In this document: positions 44-19,851 of the stretch, piece by piece
Numbering within the stretch: the first letter of the stretch is position 1
Layout: the number at the start of each line of letters is the position of its first letter
Origin: Candidatus Iainarchaeum sp.
GTDB lineage: Archaea > B1Sed10-29 > WALL01 > JAGHAM01
Assembly: GCA_021161465.1 (NCBI GenBank)
Contig: JAGHAM010000009.1
Span: 1-28,362, forward strand
Direction: 5' to 3'
DNA: 28,362 nt
The notes under the pieces: generated by a model
What the model was told of the DNA's origin: nothing
Databases searched by the model: none
Seen by the model: the letters and a program-made list of their open reading frames with translations, nothing else
Position numbers and translations under genes: made by a program

Positions 44-66
44 ATGTGGTATGTGTTTTAAAAAAG

Positions 67-3000
67 GTGGGTACGAGTAGTCGGTTTGTGGTTGCTATTT
101 TGTTTGTTTTTTTATTGCTAGAGCTATCTAGGGGCGAGATTATATACCCAAAGAACTGCCCGGATGATAAGGGTTTTCAGAGTTTTGACTGTGGCCTTGA
201 TGGATGGACTGGTGAATATTTCAAACTTGTCGAAGGGCGAGTTTGTGCCGGCTGGTTTAACAACAATTGTGAGATATGCTCAGGTGCCACAGAAGATACT
301 TTTTGGCCAATTGGTGGATACCATATCCGTTTGAGATATGAAGGGACGAGAGAAAATGGAATGGCATACATCGAAAGGAGCATCTCAACTAAAGGATTTA
401 AAAATATCAAACTCAAATATGCAAGAGCTGTGCGTGATGTTGAAGGTAGTAAGAATGAATGCCTATTGGTACAATACTACAACGGAACCACATGGAACAC
501 CGTACCAGGCGGTAAATATTGTGGTATTTACTACTATTTTGATGGTTGGACAATAACTAAAGATCTAAAAAGTAGAAAAGATGCTAATGATAATCCTAAG
601 TTTAGGATTCGGTTTATCTTGACCAATGTAGAGTGTGATGAATCTGCCTTTGTAGATAGAGTGAAGCTTGAAGGAAATCGGTGCAACAGTACAGGGGAGG
701 TATGTACAAAAAACGAGAGTTGTTGCTCGGATTTGTGCAACAAACGTTGCTGTAAAGTGGGGGTAGACTGTTCTGGAACAGGTTGCGATGATGAAAATAA
801 GCTCAGAAACAAAGTCTGTGACACAAAGGGTGACTGTGTATTAGACATGAGTAGCGAAGCGGGTACGGATACTGATGGGGATGGTGCAGACTTTGGTTGT
901 GACTATAATGACAGTGACCCCTGTTCTATCACCGGAAACGAAGATAATTGCGACAACTGCAACCACTGCAACGATGGTACCCAAAACTGTGATGAGACTG
1001 GGACCGATTGTGGGGGTAGTTGCGAACCATGCGGAGGCTACAGCGATGGCCACTCTTGCCAATCCGAGAACGACTGCGAAAACCACTGCGATCTTGAGAA
1101 CAAGACGTGCTTCTCGTGTACTCCGTGCTCTGGTGTGGATAGGTGCAGCAATCAAGAACCTAATGAATGCGAATTACAGTGTGGCGCAAACAAAACCTGT
1201 GATGATAAACAGGTAGACTCACACTGGATTTCCGACCAGGCGTGTAGAAGTTGTAAGGATTGCTTGTATAGCAGTGATGACACTGTTGGATCGTGTGAGT
1301 GCAGTGGGGATTGCATAAAAGGTTACTGTGAGAATGACAACAACTGTTACTATGGGGTAAGCTGTACCCTTAATGGTTGGGACTACAGCGACAAGTGTTC
1401 TACAGCAGATTCATGTGATGCTAATACGCTTGTAACAGGGAAGACCTGCGGTGCTGGTGGTTGCAGCTCTGGAGCTACGTACACTTGTGACGACACAACG
1501 CACACAAACTGCCAGAAGGTAAACTGCAACGGGTCGGATTACTACTGCACTTACGATGGTTCAAGCTGGGAGTGGAGAACAAGCAAGCCTGAGGAAAGTA
1601 TTGCAGCTGGTAACTGTGAGGATGATGTCGACAATGACTGCGATAGTGATGCAGACGAAGAAGATATGGATTGCGGTGGTACGGGGTGTAATCCTGGAGA
1701 AAAAAAACCCTGCGACAAACAGGATGGTGTTTGTGCTGGCTCATTTATGGTATGCCTAGATGATAAAAATTGGGGAGAGTGCAGTTATACTAACTTATCC
1801 AACTATGAAGATGGAAAAGAAACCCAGTGCGGCGATGGCGCAGACAACGATTGCGATAACAAAACGGATTGCGATGATGAAGATTGTTTGGATACATCTA
1901 CCTGCAAGTCTCAGATATGCTCACCAATTGGGTCTGTTGAACCTTGTGGACCCGGCGTATGTTCAAACTACAACAAAACATGTCTTAAAGCATGGGAAAA
2001 CGAAGAGCACGGCAAGTGGTTCTGCAACTATTCTGAAATTCAGAACTATGAGAAACCAGAAACTAGCTGTAATGATGGGTTGGACAATGATTGTGATGGG
2101 GCTGCTGACTGCGGTGATCCAACTACGGGGGAGCCGGAAGACACTGACTGCGTTGACCCAAGCATTCAAACCCGTGGATGTTATAATGGAAATGTGTACC
2201 TGTATGACTCATGCGGGTGGCCGGCAAGCAACCCAACCACAATATGTGCTGACGACGACCTCTGCACAATTGATGAATGTATGAATGGCGAATGTGTCTA
2301 CAGCGAGCCAGATTGCATAACTGGAGATGGGTGTTGTCCTACTGGGTGCACACCAGAAAACGACAATGACTGCAAAACATGTCTATCTGATTCAGACTGT
2401 GATGACAACATAAACTGCACTGTGGACACGTGCTCAGGAACACCAGAGGCCTGTCATCATGTACGGGTAACCTCTTGTGCCTCCGGCGATGGTTGTTGTC
2501 CTGCTGGGTGCAACTACACCACTGATAGCGACTGTCCACTAGAACCAACCAATACCCCACCAACTGTAGAGTTGCTGGAACCGGCGAGAGATGGCTACTA
2601 TTCTGTATGGGGCATCTCAACAGGAGTTCCAGTAGAGTTTAGAGCTATAGACCCTGACACAGAAAACCTAGATTGCTACTATGAAATTGATGGTATCCTA
2701 AAGAAGTTGCCAAAAGCAAAATCCGGTGAGATTGTAACCATCAACCTTCCAATGAACTGGAGCAATGATAGCCAAAAAGTAGAGAAAACGATAATGATAA
2801 ACTGTACCGATGGGATAAGTTACGCCACGAATTCCTCTAACTTTCATATTGTAGGAAAACCACCTACGGCAGACCAGGATGAGACAGAAGGTAAGCCTAA
2901 AAGTGAAGTTGAAAGGTTCATAAGGACATTCACCCCTATCCCAGACTCTTACTATGATTACATCCCAATACCAGTAAGGGAGAACCTTGACCTAATTTTC

Positions 3001-3459
3001 GCTGCACTGATTGGTTTCGCGTTGCTGGTCTTCATCGTGACATCTTATCTTTCAAGAGCTCAAAGTAGGGAAGTCATAGAGAAAAAACTCAGGGAAGAAA
3101 GAGAGAAAGAGAAAAAAATAACGTTTAGAAGACTGAAAGATAGAAGAGCAGAGATTAGAAGCAAACTGGCGAAGATAAAGAAAGCAGAGGTAGGTGGCCT
3201 GTCGAAAGCCCTGCTGAAGAAGAAAAAAGCATATGAGAATGAGCTTATTTTACTCCAAGAAGACTTGCTGAAAAATGATTTATATCTTAAGGAACTGAGT
3301 GATAAAGCTGACGAAGCTCTCGAGCAAGCTAAAAAAGGCATCCCGAGCAAGGAAATCATGAAGCAACTTGTTGAAGAAGGCTACACCAAGAAAGAGATTG
3401 AAATCATAAAGAGGGCCTTCCAGAGGAGACTGATAAAGGGTGGGTTTTTAAAAGATTAG
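67..3459 (+). CDS. Membrane-anchored Cys-rich surface protein with metal-binding-like motifs
   Basis: Predicted secreted protein (1130 aa from GTG 67; GTG 46 would add 7 residues) held by one C-terminal membrane helix. Order: signal peptide (about 1-24); a region (about 32-203) resembling jelly-roll carbohydrate-binding domains, with YIERSIST near its start and FVDRVKLEG at its end; a long Cys-rich region (about 204-825); an Ig-like domain (832-932); a transmembrane helix (about 976-996); a basic, coiled-coil-like cytoplasmic tail. Three acidic motifs around DNDCD (near residues 520, 590 and 670) resemble MopE-type metal-binding repeats; GDGCCPxGC motifs also recur. Start 67 is chosen from TATA spacing. 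The tail is homologous to those of the genes at 3538 and 14366, which strongly suggests a shared inner partner. Ligand and function are unknown. No sortase-type anchor is seen. Confidence 0.88.
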   Translation: MGTSSRFVVAILFVFLLLELSRGEIIYPKNCPDDKGFQSFDCGLDGWTGEYFKLVEGRVCAGWFNNNCEICSGATEDTFWPIGGYHIRLRYEGTRENGMAYIERSISTKGFKNIKLKYARAVRDVEGSKNECLLVQYYNGTTWNTVPGGKYCGIYYYFDGWTITKDLKSRKDANDNPKFRIRFILTNVECDESAFVDRVKLEGNRCNSTGEVCTKNESCCSDLCNKRCCKVGVDCSGTGCDDENKLRNKVCDTKGDCVLDMSSEAGTDTDGDGADFGCDYNDSDPCSITGNEDNCDNCNHCNDGTQNCDETGTDCGGSCEPCGGYSDGHSCQSENDCENHCDLENKTCFSCTPCSGVDRCSNQEPNECELQCGANKTCDDKQVDSHWISDQACRSCKDCLYSSDDTVGSCECSGDCIKGYCENDNNCYYGVSCTLNGWDYSDKCSTADSCDANTLVTGKTCGAGGCSSGATYTCDDTTHTNCQKVNCNGSDYYCTYDGSSWEWRTSKPEESIAAGNCEDDVDNDCDSDADEEDMDCGGTGCNPGEKKPCDKQDGVCAGSFMVCLDDKNWGECSYTNLSNYEDGKETQCGDGADNDCDNKTDCDDEDCLDTSTCKSQICSPIGSVEPCGPGVCSNYNKTCLKAWENEEHGKWFCNYSEIQNYEKPETSCNDGLDNDCDGAADCGDPTTGEPEDTDCVDPSIQTRGCYNGNVYLYDSCGWPASNPTTICADDDLCTIDECMNGECVYSEPDCITGDGCCPTGCTPENDNDCKTCLSDSDCDDNINCTVDTCSGTPEACHHVRVTSCASGDGCCPAGCNYTTDSDCPLEPTNTPPTVELLEPARDGYYSVWGISTGVPVEFRAIDPDTENLDCYYEIDGILKKLPKAKSGEIVTINLPMNWSNDSQKVEKTIMINCTDGISYATNSSNFHIVGKPPTADQDETEGKPKSEVERFIRTFTPIPDSYYDYIPIPVRENLDLIFAALIGFALLVFIVTSYLSRAQSREVIEKKLREEREKEKKITFRRLKDRRAEIRSKLAKIKKAEVGGLSKALLKKKKAYENELILLQEDLLKNDLYLKELSDKADEALEQAKKGIPSKEIMKQLVEEGYTKKEIEIIKRAFQRRLIKGGFLKD

Positions 3460-3503
3460 CAGGTAGTGCATATCCTCTACTATTGCGGCATCTTAACAGG
3501 CAA

Positions 3504-3514
3504 AAGATTAAATA
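3504..3514 (+). promoter_or_regulatory. TATA box of the 1743-aa surface-protein gene
   Basis: The run agattaaataa is centred about 28 nt before the ATG at 3538 and no Shine-Dalgarno site precedes that ATG, so a leaderless transcript is likely. The gene is separated from its upstream neighbour by only 78 nt but appears to have its own promoter. Confidence 0.55.
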
Positions 3515-3537
3515 ACTGAATTGGCTTTTAATAACTG

Positions 3538-6500
3538 ATGAAACGCTCAGCGCTTATTGCTGCCATACTACTTTTCTCAACGATTTTTGTAACCTTTGCT
3601 TTCTTTGTTCCTGAAGCCCATGCAGGCACCAATCCAAACGTCACAACCTGCTGCCACAGTGGACAGTCGTGCAGCTGCTCTGCGTCTGGCTGTTGTTCTG
3701 GATTACACTGTTGTAGTGGAACCTGCAAAAGTTCATGCACATACTGTGGGGATGGCAGCTGCAATGGTGGTGAAACCTGCCGAAGCTGCAAGACTGACTG
3801 TGGATGCTGTTCAAACGGTCACAGCTGCTCCTCTGGTAGTCAGTGTTGTTCCGGTAATTGCCAAGGTGGTGTTTGCACAAGTTCATGCACTAGTAATGGT
3901 GAAAGTTGCTCTGCTGACGATGACTGCTGTTCGGGGCACTGTTGCAGTGGGACATGTAGCGAGTCCGAGTGCTGTACTGGGAGAGGTGGTTCATGTAGTC
4001 ATACTTCGGATTGTTGTGGCAATCTTCTATGTTGTAGTACCTTCGGCGGCACGGGAATGAGTTGCCAAGATGTGTGCAGCTGTAAAGAGAATGGAGAAAG
4101 CTGTAATTTTGACGCTGGATGTTGTTCGGGGCATTGCTGTGGAGGTATGTGTAAGGACTCCTGCGAGAGTTGTAAAAACAACGGTGGCAGCTGTGCGTAC
4201 AATGAAGATTGTTGCTCAAACCACTGTTGTAACGGCGTATGCAAAGACCAGTGCTGTGCATCAAACGGGAATAGCTGCTCGGTTGATGGTGATTGCTGTT
4301 CGGGGCACTGTTGCAGTGGGACATGCAAAGATGAATGTGGATGTTCCTCTTGGGGGTGCTGTAATAGCGAAGGAGAAAACTGTGGCATAGGCCAACCTTG
4401 TTGTGCCGGCTTGACTTGTTGTAGCGGAACTTGCAAACCAAATTGTGGGTGTAATACAGACGGGAGCACATGCACAGGTAATTCCGATTGCTGTTCTGGA
4501 CATTGTTGTAGCGGGACATGCAAATCAAGCTGCTGTATGGGGGATGGAAGTACCTGTTCTTCAGGTAGTCAGTGTTGCTCAGGAAAATGTTGTGATGGTG
4601 TCTGCAGCTCATCCTGTTGTCAGGAAACCGGAAGCTATTGCCAGATGGACAGTGATTGTTGCTCTGGCTCATGTTGCAACAATGTATGTAGCCTATCCTG
4701 TTGTAAACAGGATGGGGATAGTTGTTCGACAGATAGTGATTGTTGCTCTGGGGTCTGCCAAGGTGGAACCTGTGGCAGCTCGTGTTCTGGTAATGGAGAT
4801 GGCTGTTCGGTTGATGGTGATTGTTGTTCGGGGCACTGCTGCAGTGGAACGTGTGAGAGCTCCTGTGGGTGCTCAACCAATGGCATGGATTGTGCATCCA
4901 ACAGCCAATGTTGTTCTGGGCATTGTTGTGATGGAACGTGCGAGAGTTCTTGTGGTGGGAGCTGTACGCAAGTTGGGGGTGTGTGCTCCTCTGATGAAAG
5001 TTGCTGCACAGGTATTTGCTGTAATGGCTATTGCGCGTCTTCATGCCCATTAACCATAAGTAACATTGCATGTAGCAGCACAGAAACGTCAATGACCTTC
5101 GCGTGGGACACCAGCAGAAGATCGAACTCATCTGTCGAATATTGCCTCCCATCAGCGTGCACGGGAACTGTCACCAGCCCGGCGTATGTCACACACCACA
5201 CACTAACAGCAACTGATAATGTTGTCCCTGGCACTGCTTATACTTACTATATACATTCCACATCAACAGATGGCCAAGTGGTTTCTTCAGGAGCCAACTA
5301 CTGCACGACACAGGTAGGTGGCTGCACACAAACTGGTGGGTATTGCATATCCAGTGATAGTTGTTGCTCTGGCTATTGCTGTGACAATACCTGCTCAGCC
5401 GTCCCATGTTGCAGTGCGAACAACAATAATTGCAATGAAGATGAGGATTGTTGCTCAGAGCATTGCTGCAATGGCGTTTGCAAGGATTATTGTGACTGTG
5501 GGCCAACAGGGAGTATCTGCTCCTTCGATAAGCAATGCTGCTCGGGGTATTGCGCCAATAACACATGTAAGACTAATTTGGGCAGCTCAGACTATGTGCC
5601 TCCTGAGGTGTCTATATCTGGCGCAATTGGTGTATGGGGAAAAGAGCCACTCTCAGCCAAGATAGTCTGCACAGACGAAAGTGGCTGCGATGCAAGCACA
5701 TACAGGTTTAAGTCCTATACGAACAATCCATTATCCTGTCCAAATGTTTATTCCCTATACAATATATCTGCTTCATCTCCAGAAGAGGTATACAATCATC
5801 AATGGTTATGCGGGGCTGCCATGGATAACAACGAGAATGTAGGCTTCACTGAGCATCCCACAGAATTTAGAATAGATAGTGAAGCTCCAATAACCTCCAT
5901 AATCAGCCCTGGAGAAGGCTCAATCCAGACAAAGGATTTCCAATTATCCCTTGGTGATGAGGATACAGGAGGGAGCGAACTACAGTTATGTTATTACCAG
6001 ATACAAGCAAAAAATGGTGACCAGTGGCTGACAACAAAAGGTTGGACTGCTAGGACATGCTCCATTCCAATAACCGTGTCACTTAGTGGTGGAGATTGCC
6101 CATATTCTGGCGATAGGCCGGCATGCAAGATAAGGGCCTATGCCACTGACATGGCAGGTAACATAGGAAACATTGCGGAAAGGAATTTCATAATCTCCCC
6201 AGACCACCCAGATGAAAATCCGCCAACACGCGGAAGTTACAATCCAATGGAAAACACACTTCAGAGAAGTGAATTTGACCTAAGTTTCAATCTGAATGAG
6301 AAAGGTAATTGCAAGTGGGGATTAGAAAACGCAGACTATGATAATCTAGCGAAGAGCTGTGATGGGGACGGAACAACAATTATCTGCCATGTATCCAACC
6401 TCCCACATGGTTTAGTCACTATCTATGTTGGTTGTGAAGACGCACTAGGAAACAAAGATACAAAATCAACAACAAGCTCGCTCAAGTATCTCATACAGGA

Positions 6501-8769
6501 TGATGTCATGAAAATAGACATAGTCTCCCCAGAAAACAACAGTAAGATAGCAGCTGGTTGGGCCAAAGTATTGTTCAAGACTGAAGATACAAACACTCAG
6601 AAATTCCAATACAGTTATGACGGGATTGTCTGGAGTGATATGGATATACCATTCCAGGCTCAGGAAGACGTATACTCTTATAATTTCACGTCCCTGCATA
6701 CAGGTAAAAATACATTATACATAAGGGGCTACGGTATTGGGGGTGTTGGAACACCATCAAAGGTGGTGGTTGACGTCACGGTTGATGTTAATCTTGCACC
6801 ACAGGTTACTATAGACTATCCTGGCTACTATGAGTTTTATTTTGCAGTAGATGAAGTGGAATTCACCGCAACAGATGAAGAAGCTACTAATATGGACTGC
6901 AAATACCGGGTAGACAATCTGGAGTGGATTGACACCACAGCCGAGAATGGTGTGAAAAAAACAGTTCCAATAACTATACCAGAAGGGTGGCACGATGTAA
7001 GTGTAAAATGCTCAGATGGCTCAAAATGGACGAATCCGCCAGTTATCCATACCTTTTACGTACACTCATCGAATTCAGAAAATATAACCAATATGCCTCC
7101 AGAGGTAATCATCAAATACCCCAAATACAACGGAAACTATGAATCTATCGATAAAATTACGTTCCTGGCTACAGATGATAAGGCAGACGAAGTAGACTGC
7201 AACGCTGAAATAGACTCAAATGGCATGTCAAGTAAAAAAGTTCACACAGGGATAGAGGAGAGTATAGACGTAAGTGCTGTGGGAGATGGGTGGCACACAG
7301 CAACAGTTTCTTGCTTTGATGGAAAGAATTGGACATTGAACCCACCTGTTGTGTTCTTCTATATACAGACCAATAAAAGTAGCAAAGGAAACAGCCCGCC
7401 GGCAGTATCCATAGAGTACCCCACCAATGGTGGCACATACAATAACATTAACAGTTTCTTGTTTAAGACAGTTGATGACAGCTCTTCTGACTTATCGTGC
7501 ATGTATTCCATAGATTCCTTGGATTGGAAAAGTGTTGGTGCAGTAAACAACACTAAAACCAAAGTTGACATAGTGGTAGGTAGAGGGGGGCATATGCTCA
7601 CAGTCAGGTGTTACGACGGCTCCTCCTGGACGCCAAATCCACCAACGTATTATTTCTTTGTGGAGAGGGGAGAGCTACCAAAGGGAGCCTTCCTAACTGG
7701 GGGTAGTTTCATACTAACACCAAAGGAAGAATCACCACATGAAGTTGTCCTGGACATCAGGTTGTCACCAGATGCTAGTGTCCCTGCTTATTTAGTTAGT
7801 ATAAACTTTAGCAATCCACCAAAAGGAGTACTACTACAGGACACGTACTTGAAGAAAGCAGCTGTGTTCCTTTCGCCGGGTGACTCTTCAAAGCTCAGCT
7901 GGAAGGTGATGGCTCCAGCAACCTACAATGTAAACCCATCAGATTTTGAAGTGCAGTGGGATGACGAGGTAAAACTTGAACTAGACAGCATTCCAAGGAG
8001 AACAACTAACATTGAACTAAACATTAGTGGTAAAACAGATCCTGATGTCTGTGAAAAGTATAATATAACCAGCATTAAGGGAGAAAATGATAAATGCAGG
8101 ACCAAAATAGTCGTCAACAAGGAAGAGCCAATATATGCTGATGTAGACGGGAGATTCTCAAAAACTGTTTTCCTGGAGCCTGGTGAGAACCTTGTGACTG
8201 TCACTGCGGTAGACCCAGGTGGAAATAGGGTATTTGAAAACTTTAAAGTAGAATACACCCCTCCTTTGAGTGCATTGATAATCAAGAACCTATTCCCAAT
8301 AATAGCATTACTAGTGCTTGCTATTGTGTTAACTGTTGTTGTTGTATTTCACAATATAAATAGAAGTAAAACAGAGATAAAAAAGGAACTTGAGAAAAAG
8401 GAAATTGAGAAAGCAAAAGAACGACTTAAAATGCTTAAAGAAAGAAGGAAGTATATCACAAAAAGGCTTTCCAAACTGGCAACTAAGGAATCGGCAATAG
8501 GCCTATCTGCCGATGAAGAGGCCCAGAAGAAGGCTTACAAGGAAGAATTAGTTGGGATACAGGAAGAGTTACTCAGCAACGAGGACTTCCTTGAGGAGTT
8601 GGCAAAGAAAACAAATGAGGTTGTCGAACTGGCTAGGAGAGGAGTGCCAAGCAAGGAAATAAGGCAAAAACTGATAAGTGAAGGGTATACCAAGAAGGAG
8701 ATTGGGATAATACGGAAGCTATTCGACGAAAAGAAGAAAAGCATAAAGAAAAACAAGAACGAAAAATGA
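3538..8769 (+). CDS. Giant membrane-anchored surface protein with an 18-unit Cys-knot-like array
   Basis: Predicted 1743-aa type I membrane protein. Signal peptide 1-29 (cut after EAHA). Residues about 37-500 hold 15 units of roughly 26-36 residues built around DCCSGHCCSGTC; an FN3-like domain follows (503-594), then three more Cys units (595-678). After that come Ig-like domains (about 685-993), an FQYSYDG-type module (994-1085), three two-Cys Ig-like modules (1087-1381), a membrane-proximal domain (1385-1578), a transmembrane helix (1585-1607) and a 136-residue tail. The first unit is followed by a CGDGSCNGGETC motif familiar from other archaeal surface proteins. The array resembles knottin or Dickkopf-like disulfide folds in cysteine pattern only; homology is not claimed. 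Near-identical DNA between units indicates recent duplication. The tail matches the genes at 67 and 14366. A role in adhesion or binding is inference. Confidence 0.9.
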   Translation: MKRSALIAAILLFSTIFVTFAFFVPEAHAGTNPNVTTCCHSGQSCSCSASGCCSGLHCCSGTCKSSCTYCGDGSCNGGETCRSCKTDCGCCSNGHSCSSGSQCCSGNCQGGVCTSSCTSNGESCSADDDCCSGHCCSGTCSESECCTGRGGSCSHTSDCCGNLLCCSTFGGTGMSCQDVCSCKENGESCNFDAGCCSGHCCGGMCKDSCESCKNNGGSCAYNEDCCSNHCCNGVCKDQCCASNGNSCSVDGDCCSGHCCSGTCKDECGCSSWGCCNSEGENCGIGQPCCAGLTCCSGTCKPNCGCNTDGSTCTGNSDCCSGHCCSGTCKSSCCMGDGSTCSSGSQCCSGKCCDGVCSSSCCQETGSYCQMDSDCCSGSCCNNVCSLSCCKQDGDSCSTDSDCCSGVCQGGTCGSSCSGNGDGCSVDGDCCSGHCCSGTCESSCGCSTNGMDCASNSQCCSGHCCDGTCESSCGGSCTQVGGVCSSDESCCTGICCNGYCASSCPLTISNIACSSTETSMTFAWDTSRRSNSSVEYCLPSACTGTVTSPAYVTHHTLTATDNVVPGTAYTYYIHSTSTDGQVVSSGANYCTTQVGGCTQTGGYCISSDSCCSGYCCDNTCSAVPCCSANNNNCNEDEDCCSEHCCNGVCKDYCDCGPTGSICSFDKQCCSGYCANNTCKTNLGSSDYVPPEVSISGAIGVWGKEPLSAKIVCTDESGCDASTYRFKSYTNNPLSCPNVYSLYNISASSPEEVYNHQWLCGAAMDNNENVGFTEHPTEFRIDSEAPITSIISPGEGSIQTKDFQLSLGDEDTGGSELQLCYYQIQAKNGDQWLTTKGWTARTCSIPITVSLSGGDCPYSGDRPACKIRAYATDMAGNIGNIAERNFIISPDHPDENPPTRGSYNPMENTLQRSEFDLSFNLNEKGNCKWGLENADYDNLAKSCDGDGTTIICHVSNLPHGLVTIYVGCEDALGNKDTKSTTSSLKYLIQDDVMKIDIVSPENNSKIAAGWAKVLFKTEDTNTQKFQYSYDGIVWSDMDIPFQAQEDVYSYNFTSLHTGKNTLYIRGYGIGGVGTPSKVVVDVTVDVNLAPQVTIDYPGYYEFYFAVDEVEFTATDEEATNMDCKYRVDNLEWIDTTAENGVKKTVPITIPEGWHDVSVKCSDGSKWTNPPVIHTFYVHSSNSENITNMPPEVIIKYPKYNGNYESIDKITFLATDDKADEVDCNAEIDSNGMSSKKVHTGIEESIDVSAVGDGWHTATVSCFDGKNWTLNPPVVFFYIQTNKSSKGNSPPAVSIEYPTNGGTYNNINSFLFKTVDDSSSDLSCMYSIDSLDWKSVGAVNNTKTKVDIVVGRGGHMLTVRCYDGSSWTPNPPTYYFFVERGELPKGAFLTGGSFILTPKEESPHEVVLDIRLSPDASVPAYLVSINFSNPPKGVLLQDTYLKKAAVFLSPGDSSKLSWKVMAPATYNVNPSDFEVQWDDEVKLELDSIPRRTTNIELNISGKTDPDVCEKYNITSIKGENDKCRTKIVVNKEEPIYADVDGRFSKTVFLEPGENLVTVTAVDPGGNRVFENFKVEYTPPLSALIIKNLFPIIALLVLAIVLTVVVVFHNINRSKTEIKKELEKKEIEKAKERLKMLKERRKYITKRLSKLATKESAIGLSADEEAQKKAYKEELVGIQEELLSNEDFLEELAKKTNEVVELARRGVPSKEIRQKLISEGYTKKEIGIIRKLFDEKKKSIKKNKNEK
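3644..5045 (+). repeat. Tandem Cys-rich coding repeats, 15 units
   Basis: In-frame units of about 80-105 nt each encode a pattern like C-x-x-NGxSC-x(4)-DCCSGHCCxGTC-x(3)-C. Some are nearly identical in DNA: positions 3925-3956 and 4294-4325 share 32 identical bases, and 4279-4295 equals 4807-4823. Other units have diverged strongly, so the array mixes old and recent duplications. Three further units follow the FN3 domain at about 5320-5570. Confidence 0.85.
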
Positions 8770-8779
8770 CGGCAACAAG

Positions 8780-8790
8780 TTTATTAAATA
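8780..8790 (+). promoter_or_regulatory. TATA box of the class III pilin-like gene
   Basis: The run tttattaaata lies about 25 nt before the ATG at 8811, directly after the stop of the preceding gene. No Shine-Dalgarno site is seen, so leaderless initiation is likely. Confidence 0.6.
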
Positions 8791-8810
8791 GATAAGAGTT
8801 ATTTTAGCTG

Positions 8811-9731
8811 ATGGGTGGCAAAGGACAGACCTCACTGGAATACTTGATTTTAGTAAGTATGATAATTTTCATAGGCGCTGTTCTAGCGGCTTTTGTTTAT
8901 ACCTATTTTCTGGTTCCACAAAAAAGTACGATACCTGTAACTAAAGACAAACAGAATTGCCAGATTGGAAATGAAAAGTGGATTGGCTTCGATGAGATTG
9001 AACTCATAAACTATAACACTCCTTATGATGGAACAGCCACCACAAAGCCTCAGGCTATAAAGCGTGGTAGTGCCATATTTGAATATGACACCACAGGAAG
9101 CCCACCAACCATTAACAACAAAACTATAGCTGAAGTCTGCAGGCTTCAGAACGAGTATCCACTTATCTATGACATTAAAGGCAGAGCAATATATTTACAA
9201 AACAAGAATAGCCAGTACTATGTTTACAAGGTAAGTGGAGGGACAACTGGTTCCACAACTATCACGGTATCAGCAGAGAGCACATGGAGCTCTAGCCAAT
9301 CTGCAACTTCATCTTGCAGTTCAGGCTCCAGTGCCCAGACTTCAAAAGATGATGAATACCAGATGAAATTTGATATTGATTCAGCATTATCATCAGCTGG
9401 GAAAAGCAGAAGCGATATAACTGCTCTGAAGTTGAGTGTGGACCAAACACTTTGTACTGGTGGGTGTGGTGCAACCGATGGGGAAGTGGGACAGATAGAT
9501 GAAACTGGTTTTAAACATTCCAGTGCCACAATGAAAAACACTGGTAGTTTTGACCTATCTGGGTCGTTGCCTACCACTAGAGAAATCACCCTTAACAACA
9601 ACATATTGAGCAACGTTTCAGACCCTGTAAGTTCCGGGCAAAATTTGTATATCGCCATCAAAAAAAGCGATTCAGTTACCGGTTATGCTTACTATTGCAA
9701 TGAATCGCAGCTGCTCATTACTGTATCCTAG
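8811..9731 (+). CDS. Class III signal peptide (type IV pilin-like) protein
   Basis: Predicted 306-aa pilin-like protein. The N-terminus MGGKG is followed by QTSLEYLIL, an exact fit to the QXSXEXXXL signature of archaeal class III signal peptides, then a hydrophobic helix (about residues 12-35). Family knowledge: such prepilins are cut after the Gly by an EppA-type GxGD peptidase and the hydrophobic N-terminus packs into a filament. A candidate peptidase lies at 23536-24426. The mature part is large for a pilin: residues about 40-140 are unassigned, a Ser-rich linker follows near 145-175, and the last 120 residues look beta-rich with a CTGGC pair, as in a jelly-roll tip domain. It sits among four large surface proteins, so it could be a tip or minor pilin displaying a binding domain. 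Start ATG 8811 is supported by the TATA box. Confidence 0.88.
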   Translation: MGGKGQTSLEYLILVSMIIFIGAVLAAFVYTYFLVPQKSTIPVTKDKQNCQIGNEKWIGFDEIELINYNTPYDGTATTKPQAIKRGSAIFEYDTTGSPPTINNKTIAEVCRLQNEYPLIYDIKGRAIYLQNKNSQYYVYKVSGGTTGSTTITVSAESTWSSSQSATSSCSSGSSAQTSKDDEYQMKFDIDSALSSAGKSRSDITALKLSVDQTLCTGGCGATDGEVGQIDETGFKHSSATMKNTGSFDLSGSLPTTREITLNNNILSNVSDPVSSGQNLYIAIKKSDSVTGYAYYCNESQLLITVS

Positions 9732-9758
9732 TTCGCTTATTGCAAAAAAACTACAACA

Positions 9759-9769
9759 TTTATAAATAT
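9759..9769 (+). promoter_or_regulatory. TATA box of the 1509-aa secreted-protein gene
   Basis: The run tttataaatat is centred 26-27 nt before the GTG at 9790 and lies between the pilin gene and this one. The ATG at 9799 would be 9 nt further down. The spacing favours a leaderless GTG start. Confidence 0.65.
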
Positions 9770-9789
9770 AGCTCCCCTATATTTATCCT

Positions 9790-12700
9790 GTGGGGGGTAT
9801 GACTGGATATAAGTCAAAATTATTGTTGGTGCTAACTTTAGTGTTGTTTATTCCAGGCTATGCCCTCGGCGGATCCTGCTCGACAGAAGCTGGTGGTATG
9901 TGCGAGGGTTATGACAAAGCAATATGCATGTATGACATGCCAGGGGGAACTTTCCATCCAAGCACAAATTTCTGCATGCAAAACGTAAGAATGTACAACT
10001 TTAAATACAAAGGTGAGGCTGAATCGCCAATAGAGTGCAAACTACGGGATTTTGCTTGTTACTGCTTCAACACAGACCCATGCCCAAAACCCTTTGAGGT
10101 AAAGAACATCCAGCACACGGTAGGTTCAACAACAGCAACCATAAGCTGGAATACCAAATGGGCAGAACAGACAGGTTCCATAAAGCCAGGGACGGATTGG
10201 CCAACAAACGCAACAATTTACTATGGAACAACCGAAGAGTACTCTCACTCAGTCACAACTGATGAAACCAACGGGACGCACACGGCCACAATAACTGGTT
10301 TGCAGCCTGGGTCTACATATCACTTTAAGATTTCCGCAGAGGACGAGCTTGAAAATCTTGTAAACTCCACTGATTTAACGTTCACCACAGAGCAACTACC
10401 AAACACGCCACCAACCGTGCCAACACCAGAAGAGCCAGCAGATGGCGCGATGGTGGAAACCAGCCCAACTATCAGATGGAGTAGTTCATACGATAACGAC
10501 GGGGATACCATCACCTATGAGCTACAGGTTGACGACAAACAACAGTTTGATTCACCAACAACCAGAAGCACACAACTAACCTATATTGATGACCTGACAC
10601 TCGTACCAGGAACATATTATTGGAGGGTTAGAGCATACGATGGTAAAGATTACTCTAACTGGAGTGAAGTATGGAGCTTCACAATAGAAGAGCAGGACAC
10701 AACACCACCAACGTCCAACCACCCAACAGATATAACAGTAGAACAAGATGGTGAGGCAACTGTCAATTGGATACTCCATGATGAAACACTTCCTGGTAAA
10801 TACAAGGTTACAAAAGATGGAAGCACATACGTGAATTGGACCCCATGGGAGAATGGAACACAAATCAACGTGCCAATAGACACCGGTGAAGTAGGAACGC
10901 ACCAATACACTATCTACTTCGATGATGCCGCTGGAAATGCCGGAACACCAGATACTGTAGTAGTTGAAATAATTTTAGGGCAGCAGCCACCAACTATCCC
11001 AAACCTCATATCACCAAAAAACGGGGCTAGTATGTATGAAAATCCTCAGGTCAGCTGGGAAGAGTCAATTGACCCAAACGGAGACAGCATTACATATGAG
11101 CTTCTCGTGGATAACGCCCCCGGCTTCTCATCACCTGAAATCCACAAAAGTGGCTTAACGACCACTGGCTATCAAACAGAAGGTTTATCAATAGACACCT
11201 ACTACTGGAAGGTCAGAGCCTATGACGGTAAAGACCATTCCAACTGGAGTGAGGTACGGCAATTCACAATCACTAACAAGCCTTCACCACAGGGACAACT
11301 CACTGAGTTGCCATCTGGGAACTGGGATGAAACTTATCCGGCCCAAACTATCGTCTCATGCAGCTTAACAGCGGGTGATGCTGGCACTCCTCTTGAACTT
11401 CAGAGAGATGGGGAAACTGTGGCCGTAGGGACCACACCCTCCGAAACCACAACCATGGCTGCTGGTAGCTATAGCTACTCATGCCATTACCCGGAAACAG
11501 AGAATTACTCCAGCGCTGTTCTAGACACAAAGACATTAAATGTAGAGAAAGGCTCAAGAACTGTAAATGTAACTTTTGATAAGGAAAGCCCAGTACAATA
11601 CGGCACACCACTAACTGTAAACTGCGATGTTTCGAGTACCCCCAGTGATGGACAGATTCACCTTTACATGAATGGGACGGATATATCCGGGCTAGCTGGG
11701 AAAGAGCATGTTTATCCTGCAGGTTACTGGATTTTTGCCTGCAATGTTTCAGAGGGTGAAAACTATACTGGCGCACAGGACACCAAACCATTCAAAGTAA
11801 AACCACCCAACAATAGGCCTGTAGCCACAATTACATACCCAAAAAATGGTGTTTACTATCCACATTTAGACAGCTTTAACTTCACTGCAATCGACGACGA
11901 TGCTTTTGAGATGATATGCAACTACACGGTAGACGGAGCAAACGGTCAAACAAACGCGGAAAATGGTACTGTAACTATAGTGCCAGTAAGCCCGATGGGA
12001 ACTGGGGAACATACAATAAGCATTAGTTGTTTTGACGGTGAAACCTGGTCAGAGCCATCTACAGTTGACTTTTTCATTGATTCTGCTCCTCCTGATATAC
12101 AAATAACCCTTCCAGAAAACAACAGCTACATAAACTCATCCATTCTAGCTTACGTAGGTTATGATAACGTTGGTATAGACCATTATGAAGTCAAGGAAGA
12201 TGACGGCATGTGGATAAACAACGGTCTTTCCACAAGCTATGAGTTCTCTTTGACTAATGGTGCACACACGCTTTGTGTAAAAGCTGTTGATGATGTTGGG
12301 AATAGCAACACCTCTTGTGTCACTGTCGTTTACGATACAATTCCACCAGAGATTACCATACACTCCCCAGAAAACCAGACTGTTTTTGGCACTAACGAAA
12401 TAACAATCACTTACTCTTCCACTGCAGCTGATATTGCCTACTCACAGTACAAAGTAGATGAAGGGGAATGGTTGACGGATGATAACGGAAGTCCAACAAC
12501 AGTAACTGGGCTAAGTGATGGTTGGCATTACATTTATGTTAGAAGTGTTGACTTAACGGGAAATATTGGTCCTGCACAGGTTGTGTATGTACGTGTCGAC
12601 ACCACGAGACCAACCGTCATCGTAGAATCTCCAGAGAACAACAGTGAATACAACGTTGATTGGGTTGTCGCTGAATTTAACTCACCAGATGAAGATGTGA

Positions 12701-14319
12701 AGGGTTTTGAGTACAGCTACGATAACGAAGAATGGATGAATATGGGGATAGAGGAGCCACAAGCCGATGAAACCTACTCATTCAACTTTACAAATTTACC
12801 CGAAGGGGTAGACTCTATATACATACGCGCTTATGATTCTGTTGGGCTGGGAGAACCTGCTTTGTTGCTAGTTAACATAAGCCTACCACATATCCCTCCA
12901 TCTGTAACAATCACGTACCCAACTAATGACACTTACTACGTATCCATGACTGCATTTAGATTCATACCAACAGATGACAAAGAAATTAGCCTTGTGTGCA
13001 ATTACAGCGTGGACTCTGGCGCTTGGCAAACTGCTGTGGCAGCAAATGGTAGTGAAAGGGTTGTCTCCATATCCATTGGTGAGGGGTATCACGAGATTAG
13101 AGTTAAGTGTTTTGATGGTGGGTTCTGGTCAAATGAAAGCATGGTTTATTTCTATGTAGACACAAGTGGGCCAATTGTCACCATAACCAGCCCAGAGAAC
13201 TATACATATCAGAATGAGGCCCACTTCGAATATACTGCAACTGATAACGGTGGGAGTGGTATTGATTACTACGAAGTCAAAACTGGGGCTGGCGCGTGGA
13301 TTCAGACCACAGAACCATCACACACCTTCAGCTTGTCTGATGGGCAGCACTGGCTTTATGCTAGGGCAGTGGATAAATTGGGTAACGTAGGACCAATAGC
13401 AAAAGTCGCAGTAAATATAGACACGCAGCCTCCAGAGATAACCATGATAGCCCCTATGAACAATACAAACACAACAGCAACCGATGTTGATATTTATTAT
13501 ACCAGTAGCTCGTCAGATCTAGACCACTATGAAGTTAAGCAAGATAACGGTGGGTGGATAAACAAGGGAACCATAGATTGGCATATGTTTTATAGCCTAT
13601 CAGATGGCACCCACAATTTATACGCAAAAGCTGTTGATGTCGCTGGTAACGAAAAAGTAGTATTCCTCATTGTCAATGTTAACACTTACGGACCAACAGT
13701 AATCATCACAGCCCCAGCCAACGGCTCATATTACGAAGTTGATGACATAAACGTCACGTTTTACTCAAACGATAGTGACGTAACAACATTCCAGTACTCT
13801 TTCAACGGCGCGAACTGGTTTGACACGGGGATAAACGCACAGCCGGATGAAGCCTACACCTACACCGTGCACAATGTCCCTGATGGCAACTCAAGCATTT
13901 ACATAAGGGGCAAAGATACTGCAAACAACTATGGTGTTCCAGATGTTGTAAACGTTAACATTGATTCAATATTCACGAGTCTGCTTGTGTGGATAGACAT
14001 AGACGACTCTATCTATGGGTATACAGAAACTAACGCCTTCGGGATAGTTGGCAACAACAATGAAGAGAACATACCAGGTGGTTATGTTGAAGTGAATCTA
14101 ACGTTCGACGACTCTCTTTGTTACACAATATTAGGTGGCGACTCCAACCCCGTTTCACTACCAGAGATAAAGTCTGGCGAGATGGAGGATGCTGAGTGGA
14201 TGTATACATGTGATAACGTTGCAGAACCCACATATGTAAATGCAACTGTTTGGATGACTTATCTTCCAAATGGTAAGAAGAATCATGCATCCAAGGTTGT
14301 AGAAGTCGTCCCTCTGTAA
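9790..14319 (+). CDS. Large secreted FN3/Ig-like repeat protein without a membrane anchor
   Basis: Predicted 1509-aa secreted protein. A signal peptide (about 1-28, ending near YALGG) is followed by a small Cys-containing domain (29-100) and an FN3 domain (103-202). Two related FN3-like domains (206-302 and 399-496) both carry the motif YYW[RK]VRAYDGKD. Then comes a chain of about a dozen Ig-like domains, including two two-Cys modules (676-765 and 1036-1127) and two FQYSYDG-type modules (939-1032 and 1301-1392), which also occur in the 1743-aa protein. The last 115 residues are a distinct domain with two Cys. There is no C-terminal hydrophobic helix, sortase-like signal or cytoplasmic tail, so it is either released or bound to another surface component; the neighbouring anchored proteins and the pilin are candidates. 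GTG 9790 is chosen from TATA spacing; ATG 9799 is the alternative. Ligand unknown. Confidence 0.88.
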   Translation: MGGMTGYKSKLLLVLTLVLFIPGYALGGSCSTEAGGMCEGYDKAICMYDMPGGTFHPSTNFCMQNVRMYNFKYKGEAESPIECKLRDFACYCFNTDPCPKPFEVKNIQHTVGSTTATISWNTKWAEQTGSIKPGTDWPTNATIYYGTTEEYSHSVTTDETNGTHTATITGLQPGSTYHFKISAEDELENLVNSTDLTFTTEQLPNTPPTVPTPEEPADGAMVETSPTIRWSSSYDNDGDTITYELQVDDKQQFDSPTTRSTQLTYIDDLTLVPGTYYWRVRAYDGKDYSNWSEVWSFTIEEQDTTPPTSNHPTDITVEQDGEATVNWILHDETLPGKYKVTKDGSTYVNWTPWENGTQINVPIDTGEVGTHQYTIYFDDAAGNAGTPDTVVVEIILGQQPPTIPNLISPKNGASMYENPQVSWEESIDPNGDSITYELLVDNAPGFSSPEIHKSGLTTTGYQTEGLSIDTYYWKVRAYDGKDHSNWSEVRQFTITNKPSPQGQLTELPSGNWDETYPAQTIVSCSLTAGDAGTPLELQRDGETVAVGTTPSETTTMAAGSYSYSCHYPETENYSSAVLDTKTLNVEKGSRTVNVTFDKESPVQYGTPLTVNCDVSSTPSDGQIHLYMNGTDISGLAGKEHVYPAGYWIFACNVSEGENYTGAQDTKPFKVKPPNNRPVATITYPKNGVYYPHLDSFNFTAIDDDAFEMICNYTVDGANGQTNAENGTVTIVPVSPMGTGEHTISISCFDGETWSEPSTVDFFIDSAPPDIQITLPENNSYINSSILAYVGYDNVGIDHYEVKEDDGMWINNGLSTSYEFSLTNGAHTLCVKAVDDVGNSNTSCVTVVYDTIPPEITIHSPENQTVFGTNEITITYSSTAADIAYSQYKVDEGEWLTDDNGSPTTVTGLSDGWHYIYVRSVDLTGNIGPAQVVYVRVDTTRPTVIVESPENNSEYNVDWVVAEFNSPDEDVKGFEYSYDNEEWMNMGIEEPQADETYSFNFTNLPEGVDSIYIRAYDSVGLGEPALLLVNISLPHIPPSVTITYPTNDTYYVSMTAFRFIPTDDKEISLVCNYSVDSGAWQTAVAANGSERVVSISIGEGYHEIRVKCFDGGFWSNESMVYFYVDTSGPIVTITSPENYTYQNEAHFEYTATDNGGSGIDYYEVKTGAGAWIQTTEPSHTFSLSDGQHWLYARAVDKLGNVGPIAKVAVNIDTQPPEITMIAPMNNTNTTATDVDIYYTSSSSDLDHYEVKQDNGGWINKGTIDWHMFYSLSDGTHNLYAKAVDVAGNEKVVFLIVNVNTYGPTVIITAPANGSYYEVDDINVTFYSNDSDVTTFQYSFNGANWFDTGINAQPDEAYTYTVHNVPDGNSSIYIRGKDTANNYGVPDVVNVNIDSIFTSLLVWIDIDDSIYGYTETNAFGIVGNNNEENIPGGYVEVNLTFDDSLCYTILGGDSNPVSLPEIKSGEMEDAEWMYTCDNVAEPTYVNATVWMTYLPNGKKNHASKVVEVVPL

Positions 14320-14331
14320 AATCAACTATAG

Positions 14332-14342
14332 GTTATAAATAG
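14332..14342 (+). promoter_or_regulatory. TATA box of the 376-aa anchored-protein gene
   Basis: The run gttataaatag is centred about 29 nt before the ATG at 14366. No Shine-Dalgarno site precedes the start, so leaderless initiation is likely. Confidence 0.6.
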
Positions 14343-14365
14343 GCTTTCTTCTTCTCTAAACTACG

Positions 14366-15496
14366 ATGAGAAAGTGCCTGATACTAGTGGTCATGCTGAT
14401 AATCTCACAGAGCGCTCTAGGGATAAGCGCAACCAAAATTGAGGGTTTTGAACTTGAGGGCATATTTGTAACCAAAAATGAAACTACAATTATGATAAGT
14501 AATGATGTAGCACCAGTATATGGTCTTTCTGTTGAAGTAATTGATTTGCCGAAATGTGCTAACTTGACGGGTTCTCAAGTAAAAAACATAAAGTTTCTTG
14601 GAAAAACAAAGGTTAGCTTAAGTTGGAATATATCATCTAATGGTAGCTGCAATTTAACCAAAGATAATTTCAAAATAGTTTCATGGGATGACTCTGTCCT
14701 ATTGCAGGGTTTGCATGTCAATGGTCAGCTTGTGAAAAACAATAGTTTTTTGAAAGTTAACACTCCAGAAATCCACATAGGGGGGTACACTGACTCAGCA
14801 AATTTCTGTAAGCAAATGCAAAATAAGAACAACGCAAGTTTCTGGAGGGATATAAACCATTGTAACACAAAAGCCAGGATAAACAATCAACTATGGTTTT
14901 ACGCTGACGATGAAGGTTATTTTGCATCTAATAAGATAAGGCTAAAAGAGGGGAACAACACTTTCACCGTAGAGGTCATGGATCCCGGCCAGAACACAAA
15001 CTCAACTAGTTTTGTAGTTGAATACAAACCAACCCCTGGTGACTGGATAAAGATACGGGCAACAGAAAACTGGTATTATATACTGGGGTTGTTGGTTGTT
15101 CTTTTCATTCTTGGTAAAGCTATATCAGCAATTCGCGCCAAGCACAAGAGAGCAGTAGGGAAGAAGAAAGAATTTGAGGATATGAAAAAAAGAAGAGCTG
15201 AACTCAGGAAGAAACTAAGCGAGCTTGTTAAGAAAGAACCCCTTGTAGGCCTCACCCATGAGGAAACAGTTATGAAGAAAAACTACGAGCAGGAACTACT
15301 TGCTCTACAGGAAGAGCTGCTCGAGAGGCCTGAATTCCAGCGGGAATTGAGTAGAGTCGCTGGAAAGGCAGTAAAATGGGCAAGAAGTGGAGTAGCTAGC
15401 AAGGAGATAAGGCAAAGGCTTGTTGAGATGGGTTATACGCAGAAAGAGATTGCAATAATCCAGAGAGTGTTTAAAGAGAAACTGGGAAATAGTTAA
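14366..15496 (+). CDS. Short membrane-anchored protein with the shared cytoplasmic tail
   Basis: Predicted 376-aa type I membrane protein. A signal peptide (about 1-19) is followed by an outer domain of about 215 residues rich in N-x-S/T sequons, a transmembrane helix (237-257) and a basic tail (258-376). The outer domain matches the membrane-proximal domain of the 1743-aa protein in order and spacing: SLSWN against KLSWK, SWDDSV against QWDDEV, YADDEGYF against YADVDGRF, and EVMDPGQN against TAVDPGGN. The tail carries QEELL, ASKEIRQRL and GYTQKEIAII, shared with the two larger anchored proteins. It therefore looks like the common stalk, membrane helix and tail without a display region. It may be a core, adaptor or assembly partner; this is inference. 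It closes the plus-strand surface cluster and faces a convergent operon. Confidence 0.87.
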   Translation: MRKCLILVVMLIISQSALGISATKIEGFELEGIFVTKNETTIMISNDVAPVYGLSVEVIDLPKCANLTGSQVKNIKFLGKTKVSLSWNISSNGSCNLTKDNFKIVSWDDSVLLQGLHVNGQLVKNNSFLKVNTPEIHIGGYTDSANFCKQMQNKNNASFWRDINHCNTKARINNQLWFYADDEGYFASNKIRLKEGNNTFTVEVMDPGQNTNSTSFVVEYKPTPGDWIKIRATENWYYILGLLVVLFILGKAISAIRAKHKRAVGKKKEFEDMKKRRAELRKKLSELVKKEPLVGLTHEETVMKKNYEQELLALQEELLERPEFQRELSRVAGKAVKWARSGVASKEIRQRLVEMGYTQKEIAIIQRVFKEKLGNS

Positions 15497-15587: not shown

Positions 15588-15944
15588 TCAGCAGCTAACA
15601 TGTATTATCGCGGTAACTCCCGGCTTTCTACCTTTTCTTTTCATTAGTTTGTTGTAAGCCTTGATTGCCTCCTGTGTTTTCCTGGCTATCAGTTTTATCT
15701 TGTTTCTCTTGCAGTAGCTTCTTGCATCCTTTGATATCTTAACAATCCCATACTCGCCTGTCCCAATCACAAACACTTTGGTTTTGTCATCAATACTTCT
15801 CTCAAGTTCTTTTTCTGTTATAAGGTGCTCGTCCTCGTCCTGCCTTGGAAAAATCTCGCCAAACGTGCTAACTATAAAATCCTTATCCAGGACTTCATCA
15901 CCATACTTGACTTTCCCCAATGTCGCCCAACCAAATAAAGGCAT
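15588..15944 (-). CDS. MTH938-like domain protein, downstream paralogue
   Basis: 118-aa protein of the MTH938/NDUFAF3 (DUF498) family: FGWATLGKV near the start and AIIHVSC at the C-terminus, matching the family's usual His-x-x-Cys end. Family members adopt a small alpha/beta fold; the biochemical role in archaea is not settled. The start at 15944 is preferred over the in-frame ATG at 15962 because an AGGAGG site (15951-15956) sits 6 nt before it and overlaps the stop of the preceding gene, the classic layout for coupled translation. It is the last gene of a three-gene minus-strand operon with a close paralogue directly upstream, suggesting tandem duplication and perhaps a heteromer. Confidence 0.82.
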   Translation of the reverse strand: MPLFGWATLGKVKYGDEVLDKDFIVSTFGEIFPRQDEDEHLITEKELERSIDDKTKVFVIGTGEYGIVKISKDARSYCKRNKIKLIARKTQEAIKAYNKLMKRKGRKPGVTAIIHVSC

Positions 15945-15950
15945 AATATC

Positions 15951-15956
15951 CCTCCT
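15951..15956 (-). promoter_or_regulatory. Shine-Dalgarno site deciding the start at 15944
   Basis: A perfect AGGAGG on the minus strand lies 6 nt upstream of the ATG at 15944 and touches the stop codon of the upstream paralogue. It argues against the ATG at 15962, which would place this site inside the coding region. Confidence 0.7.
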
Positions 15957-16297
15957 CAACATGTCGAATGAATTATGGCAAGCACTCCTTTTTTATCTTT
16001 CTCTGAATTATAGAGCTCGATTGCCTTTTTTGAGTCGGTTACCACCAGCTCAATGTTATTTTCAGCAAGGAACTTTCTGGCATCCTGCGAAACCCTAAGC
16101 GCGCCCATAAAACCATTCCCTACCACTACCTTCCTTGTGCCACTTTTCAGATAGCTTTTTAACTCGCTTAAAGTTATGAGGTGGTTATCCTCCCTAGGGC
16201 CTCTAGGATATGCCTCACCATTAGAAACCACTAAATCTTCCCGAAACTCCTTGTCTCCAAACACCAACCTTCCAAACTCTGCCTCTTTAAACTTCAT
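15956..16297 (-). CDS. MTH938-like domain protein, upstream paralogue
   Basis: 113-aa member of the MTH938/NDUFAF3 (DUF498) family, complete and of normal length. It begins with FGRLVFGDKEF and ends with AIIHSTC. It aligns with the gene at 15588-15944 throughout: YPRGPREDNHLIT here against FPRQDEDEHLIT, and VVGNGFMG here against VIGTGEYG. The start ATG follows the stop of the DJ-1-like gene by 4 nt, and the next gene's ribosome binding site overlaps its stop, so the three are almost certainly co-transcribed. Function unknown; a redox or assembly-factor role, suggested by the eukaryotic relative and the redox-type neighbour, is only inference. Confidence 0.85.
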   Translation of the reverse strand: MKFKEAEFGRLVFGDKEFREDLVVSNGEAYPRGPREDNHLITLSELKSYLKSGTRKVVVGNGFMGALRVSQDARKFLAENNIELVVTDSKKAIELYNSEKDKKGVLAIIHSTC

Positions 16298-19842: not shown

Positions 19843-19851
19843 CACCTCCTT
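19843..19851 (-). promoter_or_regulatory. Shine-Dalgarno site of the small lipoprotein
   Basis: AAGGAGGTG on the minus strand is a near-perfect anti-16S match, 5 nt from the GTG at 19837, overlapping the stop codon of the upstream gene. It decides the GTG start. Confidence 0.75.

Follow-up and report, generated by a model that had tools for sequence, protein, structure and literature searches.

How are large surface proteins anchored and organised on the inner side of the membrane in archaea with small genomes? To our knowledge, little has been described on this point. The window studied here (the whole stretch of 28,362 nt that was analysed) raises the question in a concrete form, as three of its surface proteins end in what appears to be the same cytosolic tail. 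The surface genes form a single co-directional run with intergenic gaps of 41-78 nt, in which the following features were placed.

46..3459, plus strand: surface protein 1 (up to 1137 aa; GTG start at 46 or 67), with a signal peptide, then a Cys-rich ectodomain, a membrane helix and the shared tail.
2974..3060, plus strand: membrane helix of protein 1 (residues 977-1005, Kyte-Doolittle scan).
3061..3456, plus strand: shared cytosolic tail, copy 1 (alignments; profile E 1.2e-44).
3309..3429, plus strand: 121-bp near-identical tract in tail copy 1 (97.5% identity to contig C36, L011 3063-3183).
3538..8769, plus strand: surface protein 2 (1743 aa), with a signal peptide, disulfide-rich CC repeats, Ig-like domains, a J domain, a membrane helix and the shared tail.
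7756..8262, plus strand: juxtamembrane J ectodomain of protein 2 (residues 1407-1575), common to protein 3.
8284..8349, plus strand: membrane helix of protein 2.
8350..8766, plus strand: shared cytosolic tail, copy 2 (alignment; AlphaFold2 model).
8581..8766, plus strand: C-terminal three-helix module of copy 2, motif G.PSKEI...L...GYTKKEI..I...F.
8811..9731, plus strand: class III signal-peptide (pilin-like) protein of the same co-directional run.
9790..14319, plus strand: Ig/FN3-repeat surface protein of 1509 aa, without a C-terminal membrane helix.
14366..15496, plus strand: surface protein 3 (376 aa), with a signal peptide, J ectodomain, membrane helix and the shared tail.
14438..15046, plus strand: J ectodomain of protein 3 (alignment with protein 2, residues 42-222; profile search).
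15068..15142, plus strand: membrane helix of protein 3.
15122..15493, plus strand: shared cytosolic tail, copy 3; as aligned, it starts within the end of the predicted membrane helix.

Are the three tails related? The preliminary description had proposed an alignment with several named motifs, and this was borne out. Past the membrane helix the tails (about 117-133 residues each) align end to end without large gaps, with BLOSUM62 local scores of 231-253 against shuffled means of 45-56 (z 20.7, 24.6 and 27.9), and the motifs stand at fixed columns. The three tails are one homologous domain. Fifteen copies are known from the searches described below; all match over the full length, end in G..S..I...L...GY[TS]..E...I...F and lie directly behind one membrane helix. 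In the numbering of the protein 2 tail, counted from base 8350, G98, L108, Y113, I121 and F125 are invariant in all 15, and S101, I104, G112 and E117 are kept in 14. A generic Lys/Glu coiled coil was considered as the source of the match, and the earlier view that the tail is more than this was upheld. The SKEI and GYT columns are fixed, and a profile of nine reversed tails, of like composition, gave zero matches at E<=0.1 in 19 genomes of the phylum; together these rule the coiled coil out.

How widespread is the tail? It had been expected to occur beyond this locus, and a profile search found eight copies on four contigs of the same genome and seven in a genome of a sister genus of the same family. 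The count of eight is a lower bound: these genes are repetitive, and contigs of this assembly (976 kb in 40 contigs, 93% complete) end within them. Among 394 archaeal genomes (252 genera), the full tail was found in these two only, both in one family; the sole further match at E<=1e-4 (G002) covers the last 45 residues only. A profile of the end module gives the true copies E<=1e-21; the next protein follows at 9e-7, and the remainder fades into noise. The tail profile had no match in viral contigs. The description of the tail as undescribed also stood: no covering family exists in Pfam, NCBIfam or PHROG, nor was there a sequence-level PDB match beyond noise. A search of the accessible literature for a shared cytoplasmic tail on archaeal surface proteins found nothing relevant. 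As a protein domain of archaeal surface anchors, the tail is new and of narrow distribution, limited to one family.

Two contig ends bear on the copy number. The end of contig C36 (L011 10521-11964) holds a partial Cys-rich gene like 46-3459, directly behind a J-tail gene. It is probably a ninth tail copy cut by the contig end, because its relative in the sister genus (L030 603-3404) has the shared tail. In addition, window positions 3496-3851, the start of the CC-repeat gene, are 92% identical to L009 1-356 at the end of contig C3. From this copy, at least one further CC-repeat gene exists, and the repeat breaks the assembly.

Which proteins carry the tail? Leaving aside an ectodomain-less pair and copies cut at contig ends, the carriers are type I membrane proteins with a signal peptide, an ectodomain, a single membrane helix and the tail. 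The tail is rich in Lys and Arg and has at most one Cys, in contrast to several strongly Cys-rich ectodomains. This composition, together with its place behind the membrane helix, fits a cytosolic location. As the preliminary description had held, one inner tail is found under several different outer parts: at least five ectodomain types and one ectodomain-less protein. The J domain is the only ectodomain in protein 3 (14366), C3_418, C36_403, C26_399 and C57_371. Protein 2 (3538) combines CC repeats and Ig-like domains with J. Cys-rich ectodomains without J are found in protein 1 (46), C26_933 and C21_1162, and a CGNG-type Cys-rich ectodomain in C36_1066 and C21_1076. C2_388, cut by a contig end, appears FN3-like as judged by eye. 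The ectodomain-less gene (C3_201 and C26_246) occupies the same locus in both genera, beside a J-tail gene and close to the genes for DNA polymerase D. On contig C39, the genome of the window also has a related Cys-rich protein that stops without a membrane helix and tail, so the tail marks a subset of these proteins. The further statement that the outer parts differ strongly is wrong for proteins 2 and 3, which have a common juxtamembrane ectodomain, J, of about 170-180 residues (z 25.6).

The outer part of protein 2 consists mostly of CC-containing knottin-like repeats, which the conotoxin I2 model matched in 15 stretches (E 3.4e-38). This match most likely reflects convergent disulfide spacing, and no toxin.

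The J ectodomain has a wider distribution than the tail. In a profile search, J proteins also turned up in three further families of the order, in six genomes (G002, G003, G004, G006, G007 and G010). Each of these proteins has a membrane helix and a cytosolic tail that looks helical, and a signal peptide is present wherever the gene start is in the sequence. These sister-family anchors thus share the J ectodomain and membrane helix with the window proteins, and in G003, G004 and G007 similar surface-protein neighbours as well, but their tails are not recognisably related to the window tail (hhalign probability 0.35%). Descent of the window tail from these J tails found no support in this value, although a relation could go undetected in helical sequences so short and divergent. 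In the two genomes examined for this (G007 and G006), the tail of the J protein is single-copy.

The neighbourhood of Ig-repeat, class III and J genes recurs in part in the sister families. In G003, J is found together with a pilin-like protein (z 13 against window 8811) and with an Ig-like protein whose match to 9790 is weaker (z 5.9). In G007, the C-terminus of a 9790 homolog (z 16-19) lies upstream of J with an opposite-strand gene in between, and Ig-repeat proteins (z up to 41) adjoin J in G004. Overall, the J genes of G001, G007 and G004 have a 9790 homolog upstream, and 8811 homologs adjoin tail or J genes in G001 and G003. Since J occurs in sister families with unrelated tails, in some of them beside Ig or pilin-like neighbours, the order has an older surface module, to which one family joined a different tail that then spread.

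What does the tail look like? AlphaFold2 modelled copy 2 from a 15-row alignment with pLDDT 91 and pTM 0.71, predicting helices at residues 3-49, 54-76, 78-96, 101-110 and 115-138. In this model, the first helix extends the membrane helix, helices 1 and 2 form a long antiparallel hairpin, and the last three form the C-terminal module. The hairpin is supported by solved hairpins that match it, among them the CpxA dimerisation domain (4bix_A, Z 8.4, rmsd 1.6 over 75 residues), which resembles this part of the tail only. Identity as a CpxA-like histidine kinase was rejected: the tails have no conserved His, end without an ATPase domain and have no Pfam match.

A fold search with the whole tail gave only generic two-helix coiled-coil look-alikes, and the module was therefore folded (pLDDT 84) and searched alone. 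The nearest shape is the Pex14 N-terminal domain (PF04695; 5aon_E, Z 6.4, rmsd 1.7, 46 residues), a domain of three short helices; this Z is under 8, below the level that separates small helical bundles, and the Foldseek E is above 1. The Pex14 N-terminal domain is a docking domain for short helical motifs. It differs from the module in being eukaryotic and N-terminal and in having no hairpin. Even at E<=5, PF04695 is not one of the 19 Pfam families listed with matches to the 15 modules; it was matched only by an unrelated archaeal protein, weakly (E 0.011). RecX (PF21982, PF02631) comes next (3e3v, Z 5.3, rmsd 2.0 over 51 residues), and its Pfam models match 4 of the 15 modules weakly (best E 0.006). 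RecX membership was rejected as below the Pfam cut-off (14.1 bits against 26 for member 1), and RecX is a soluble tandem of three-helix domains without a membrane anchor, whereas a single module here ends the tail of a membrane protein. The modelled module is thus loosely like both domains, at shape values too low to claim a relation. Among the PDB matches of the module profile, those to IcmE/DotG were discarded because they add up very short GYT-E stretches, and most of the remaining ones are designed proteins.

The last part of the tail had also been likened to short two-helix tails of other archaeal membrane proteins. This is true in part: the last ~45 residues weakly resemble short G[YW]xxE-type modules in unrelated archaeal proteins (for example on contig C14 of the same genome and in G002, G014 and G051), but the full tail of ~130 residues is found in one family only. 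The other matches mostly consist of the end module alone, often N-terminal. The G..S..I...L...GY pattern is that of a generic small helical module, which comes back weakly elsewhere and explains the likeness; the whole tail does not recur. One secreted protein of G051 (L035 3604-4617) has several head-to-tail GY/GF-x2-E two-helix units before its membrane helix, apparently the module as a repeat outside the cell.

How has the tail evolved? In the tree of the tails, copies from both genomes interleave completely, with seven label changes, the maximum. Bootstrap trees show 6-7, of which at least two are forced by well-supported branches, most branches being weakly supported. The interleaving indicates that the tail duplications predate the split of the genera. 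With orthologs assigned by position and best match, identity between the genera is 36-52% for tails, 28-46% for ectodomains and 64-69% for housekeeping proteins. The proposal that the inner part is kept while the outer part varies therefore holds to a modest degree: tails stand somewhat above ectodomains and below housekeeping proteins. Within the tail, the C-terminal module is best kept (mean top-residue frequency 0.65, against 0.36-0.53 in the preceding helices). The tails of protein 1 and C36_1066 share the 121-bp tract at 97.5% identity, which spans the module almost exactly, and outside it have 38-60% identical bases in 20-codon blocks. The simplest reading of these sequences is a recent gene conversion between the two genes, bounded at the domain.

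What does the tail do? A common tail under several outer types suggests that one internal partner or assembly handles all these surface proteins. Starting from the observed homology, topology and ectodomain spread and from the predicted structure, we infer partner binding and assembly: we see about an even chance that the tail serves docking and assembly in the cytosol, as a domain that is specific to this family and attached to type I membrane anchors. In the model, the membrane helix would continue into a hairpin stalk able to pair tails with each other, and hairpins would stand side by side beneath the membrane. The end module may bind one putative cytosolic or membrane-peripheral partner, or the modules of neighbouring chains. 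Different outer proteins could thereby be gathered in one surface assembly with the Ig-repeat and pilin-like proteins of the run, and the ectodomain-less protein would be a spacer, cap or adaptor of the same inner lattice. Counted for this reading are the 8 + 7 copies in two genera of one family, the at least five ectodomain types and the ectodomain-less protein kept at the same locus in both genomes, the confident compact model, the best-kept C-terminal module exchanged nearly intact between diverged genes, the duplications older than the genus split, the co-directional run and the recurring sister-family neighbourhood. Against it, most of the positions kept in the module (G, S, I, L, Y, T, I, F) look like helix caps and core, and so speak for a fold rather than for a binding surface. 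Conservation of orthologous tails exceeds that of ectodomains only modestly, and the resemblance to Pex14-N is weak (Z 6.4, with a Foldseek E above 1). As the J outer domain works with unrelated tails in sister families, a partner, should there be one, is not kept throughout the order.

The main rival is passive inheritance, since helix caps and core make up most of the conserved residues and the tails change fairly quickly. Here, duplicates of an ancestral J-type anchor would have had their N-terminal part exchanged or lengthened, and the tail would be a generic helical anchor with coiled-coil packing and no specific partner. Several carriers also have J beside the membrane helix, and whole-gene duplication explains those copies; the moderate identity of ortholog tails (36-52% against 64-69% in housekeeping proteins) and the structural look of the conserved positions point the same way. 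However, four carrier types without J (three with other ectodomains, one with none) still keep the tail, the ectodomain-less carrier is conserved in both genera, and the best-kept part is the most C-terminal module, farthest from the membrane. We consider this rival possible, though clearly less probable than docking. Two further explanations are less likely. A signalling tail, in which the ectodomains sense contact and the hairpin or a nucleic-acid-binding basic last helix passes the signal, would draw on the membrane helix continuous with the hairpin (the shape also seen in 4bix_A) and on weak HTH-like and RecX-like sequence matches. Yet any two-helix coiled coil commonly gives hairpin matches, there is no catalytic or phospho-acceptor domain and no significant regulator match in Pfam or NCBIfam, and in the loci read none of the neighbour genes was recognised as regulator-like, which makes signalling improbable. 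Equally doubtful is a sorting or retention tag that works without a lasting complex and is recognised in the course of secretion or afterwards, whether by the translocon, by a platform of the pilus/archaellum type or by a quality-control factor: tail carriers do adjoin class III signal-peptide genes in G000 and G001, as the J protein does in G003, and the C39 relative shows that the tail marks a subset, but ~130 residues in five helices are large for a tag, and the archaeal sorting tags known to us are short and lie at or outside the membrane.

The docking and assembly reading can be extended. A common adaptor system, in which a tail domain was added to an old anchor or took the place of its tail, spread over adhesin-like ectodomains, has its docking module homogenised by gene conversion and serves a single inner partner or lattice, is offered more tentatively than docking itself. 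If true, outer parts would be exchangeable with the inner connection unchanged. A similar arrangement is found in the vertebrate clustered protocadherins, where many ectodomains are combined with a common cytoplasmic domain from a constant exon and gene conversion homogenises parts of the genes. The likeness is an analogy without homology, and the tails here belong to separate paralogous genes. The tail also gives experimental access: produced as a soluble domain, it can serve as bait for a partner, and it is a guide for listing the surface proteins of the family. Within one order, the same J ectodomain with different tails is a natural example of an anchor protein whose tail was replaced.

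Two minus-strand features of the window complete the picture of its genes. A secreted 453-aa protein (19850-21211) has many short Cys repeats of the FC-x2-[NH]P-x3-C type and no Pfam match above noise. Nearer to the run, 15588-15962 and 15956-16297 are overlapping tandem paralogs of 124 and 113 aa, and single genes similar to them are present in sister-family genomes (L034 1066-1434; L088 3862-4215).
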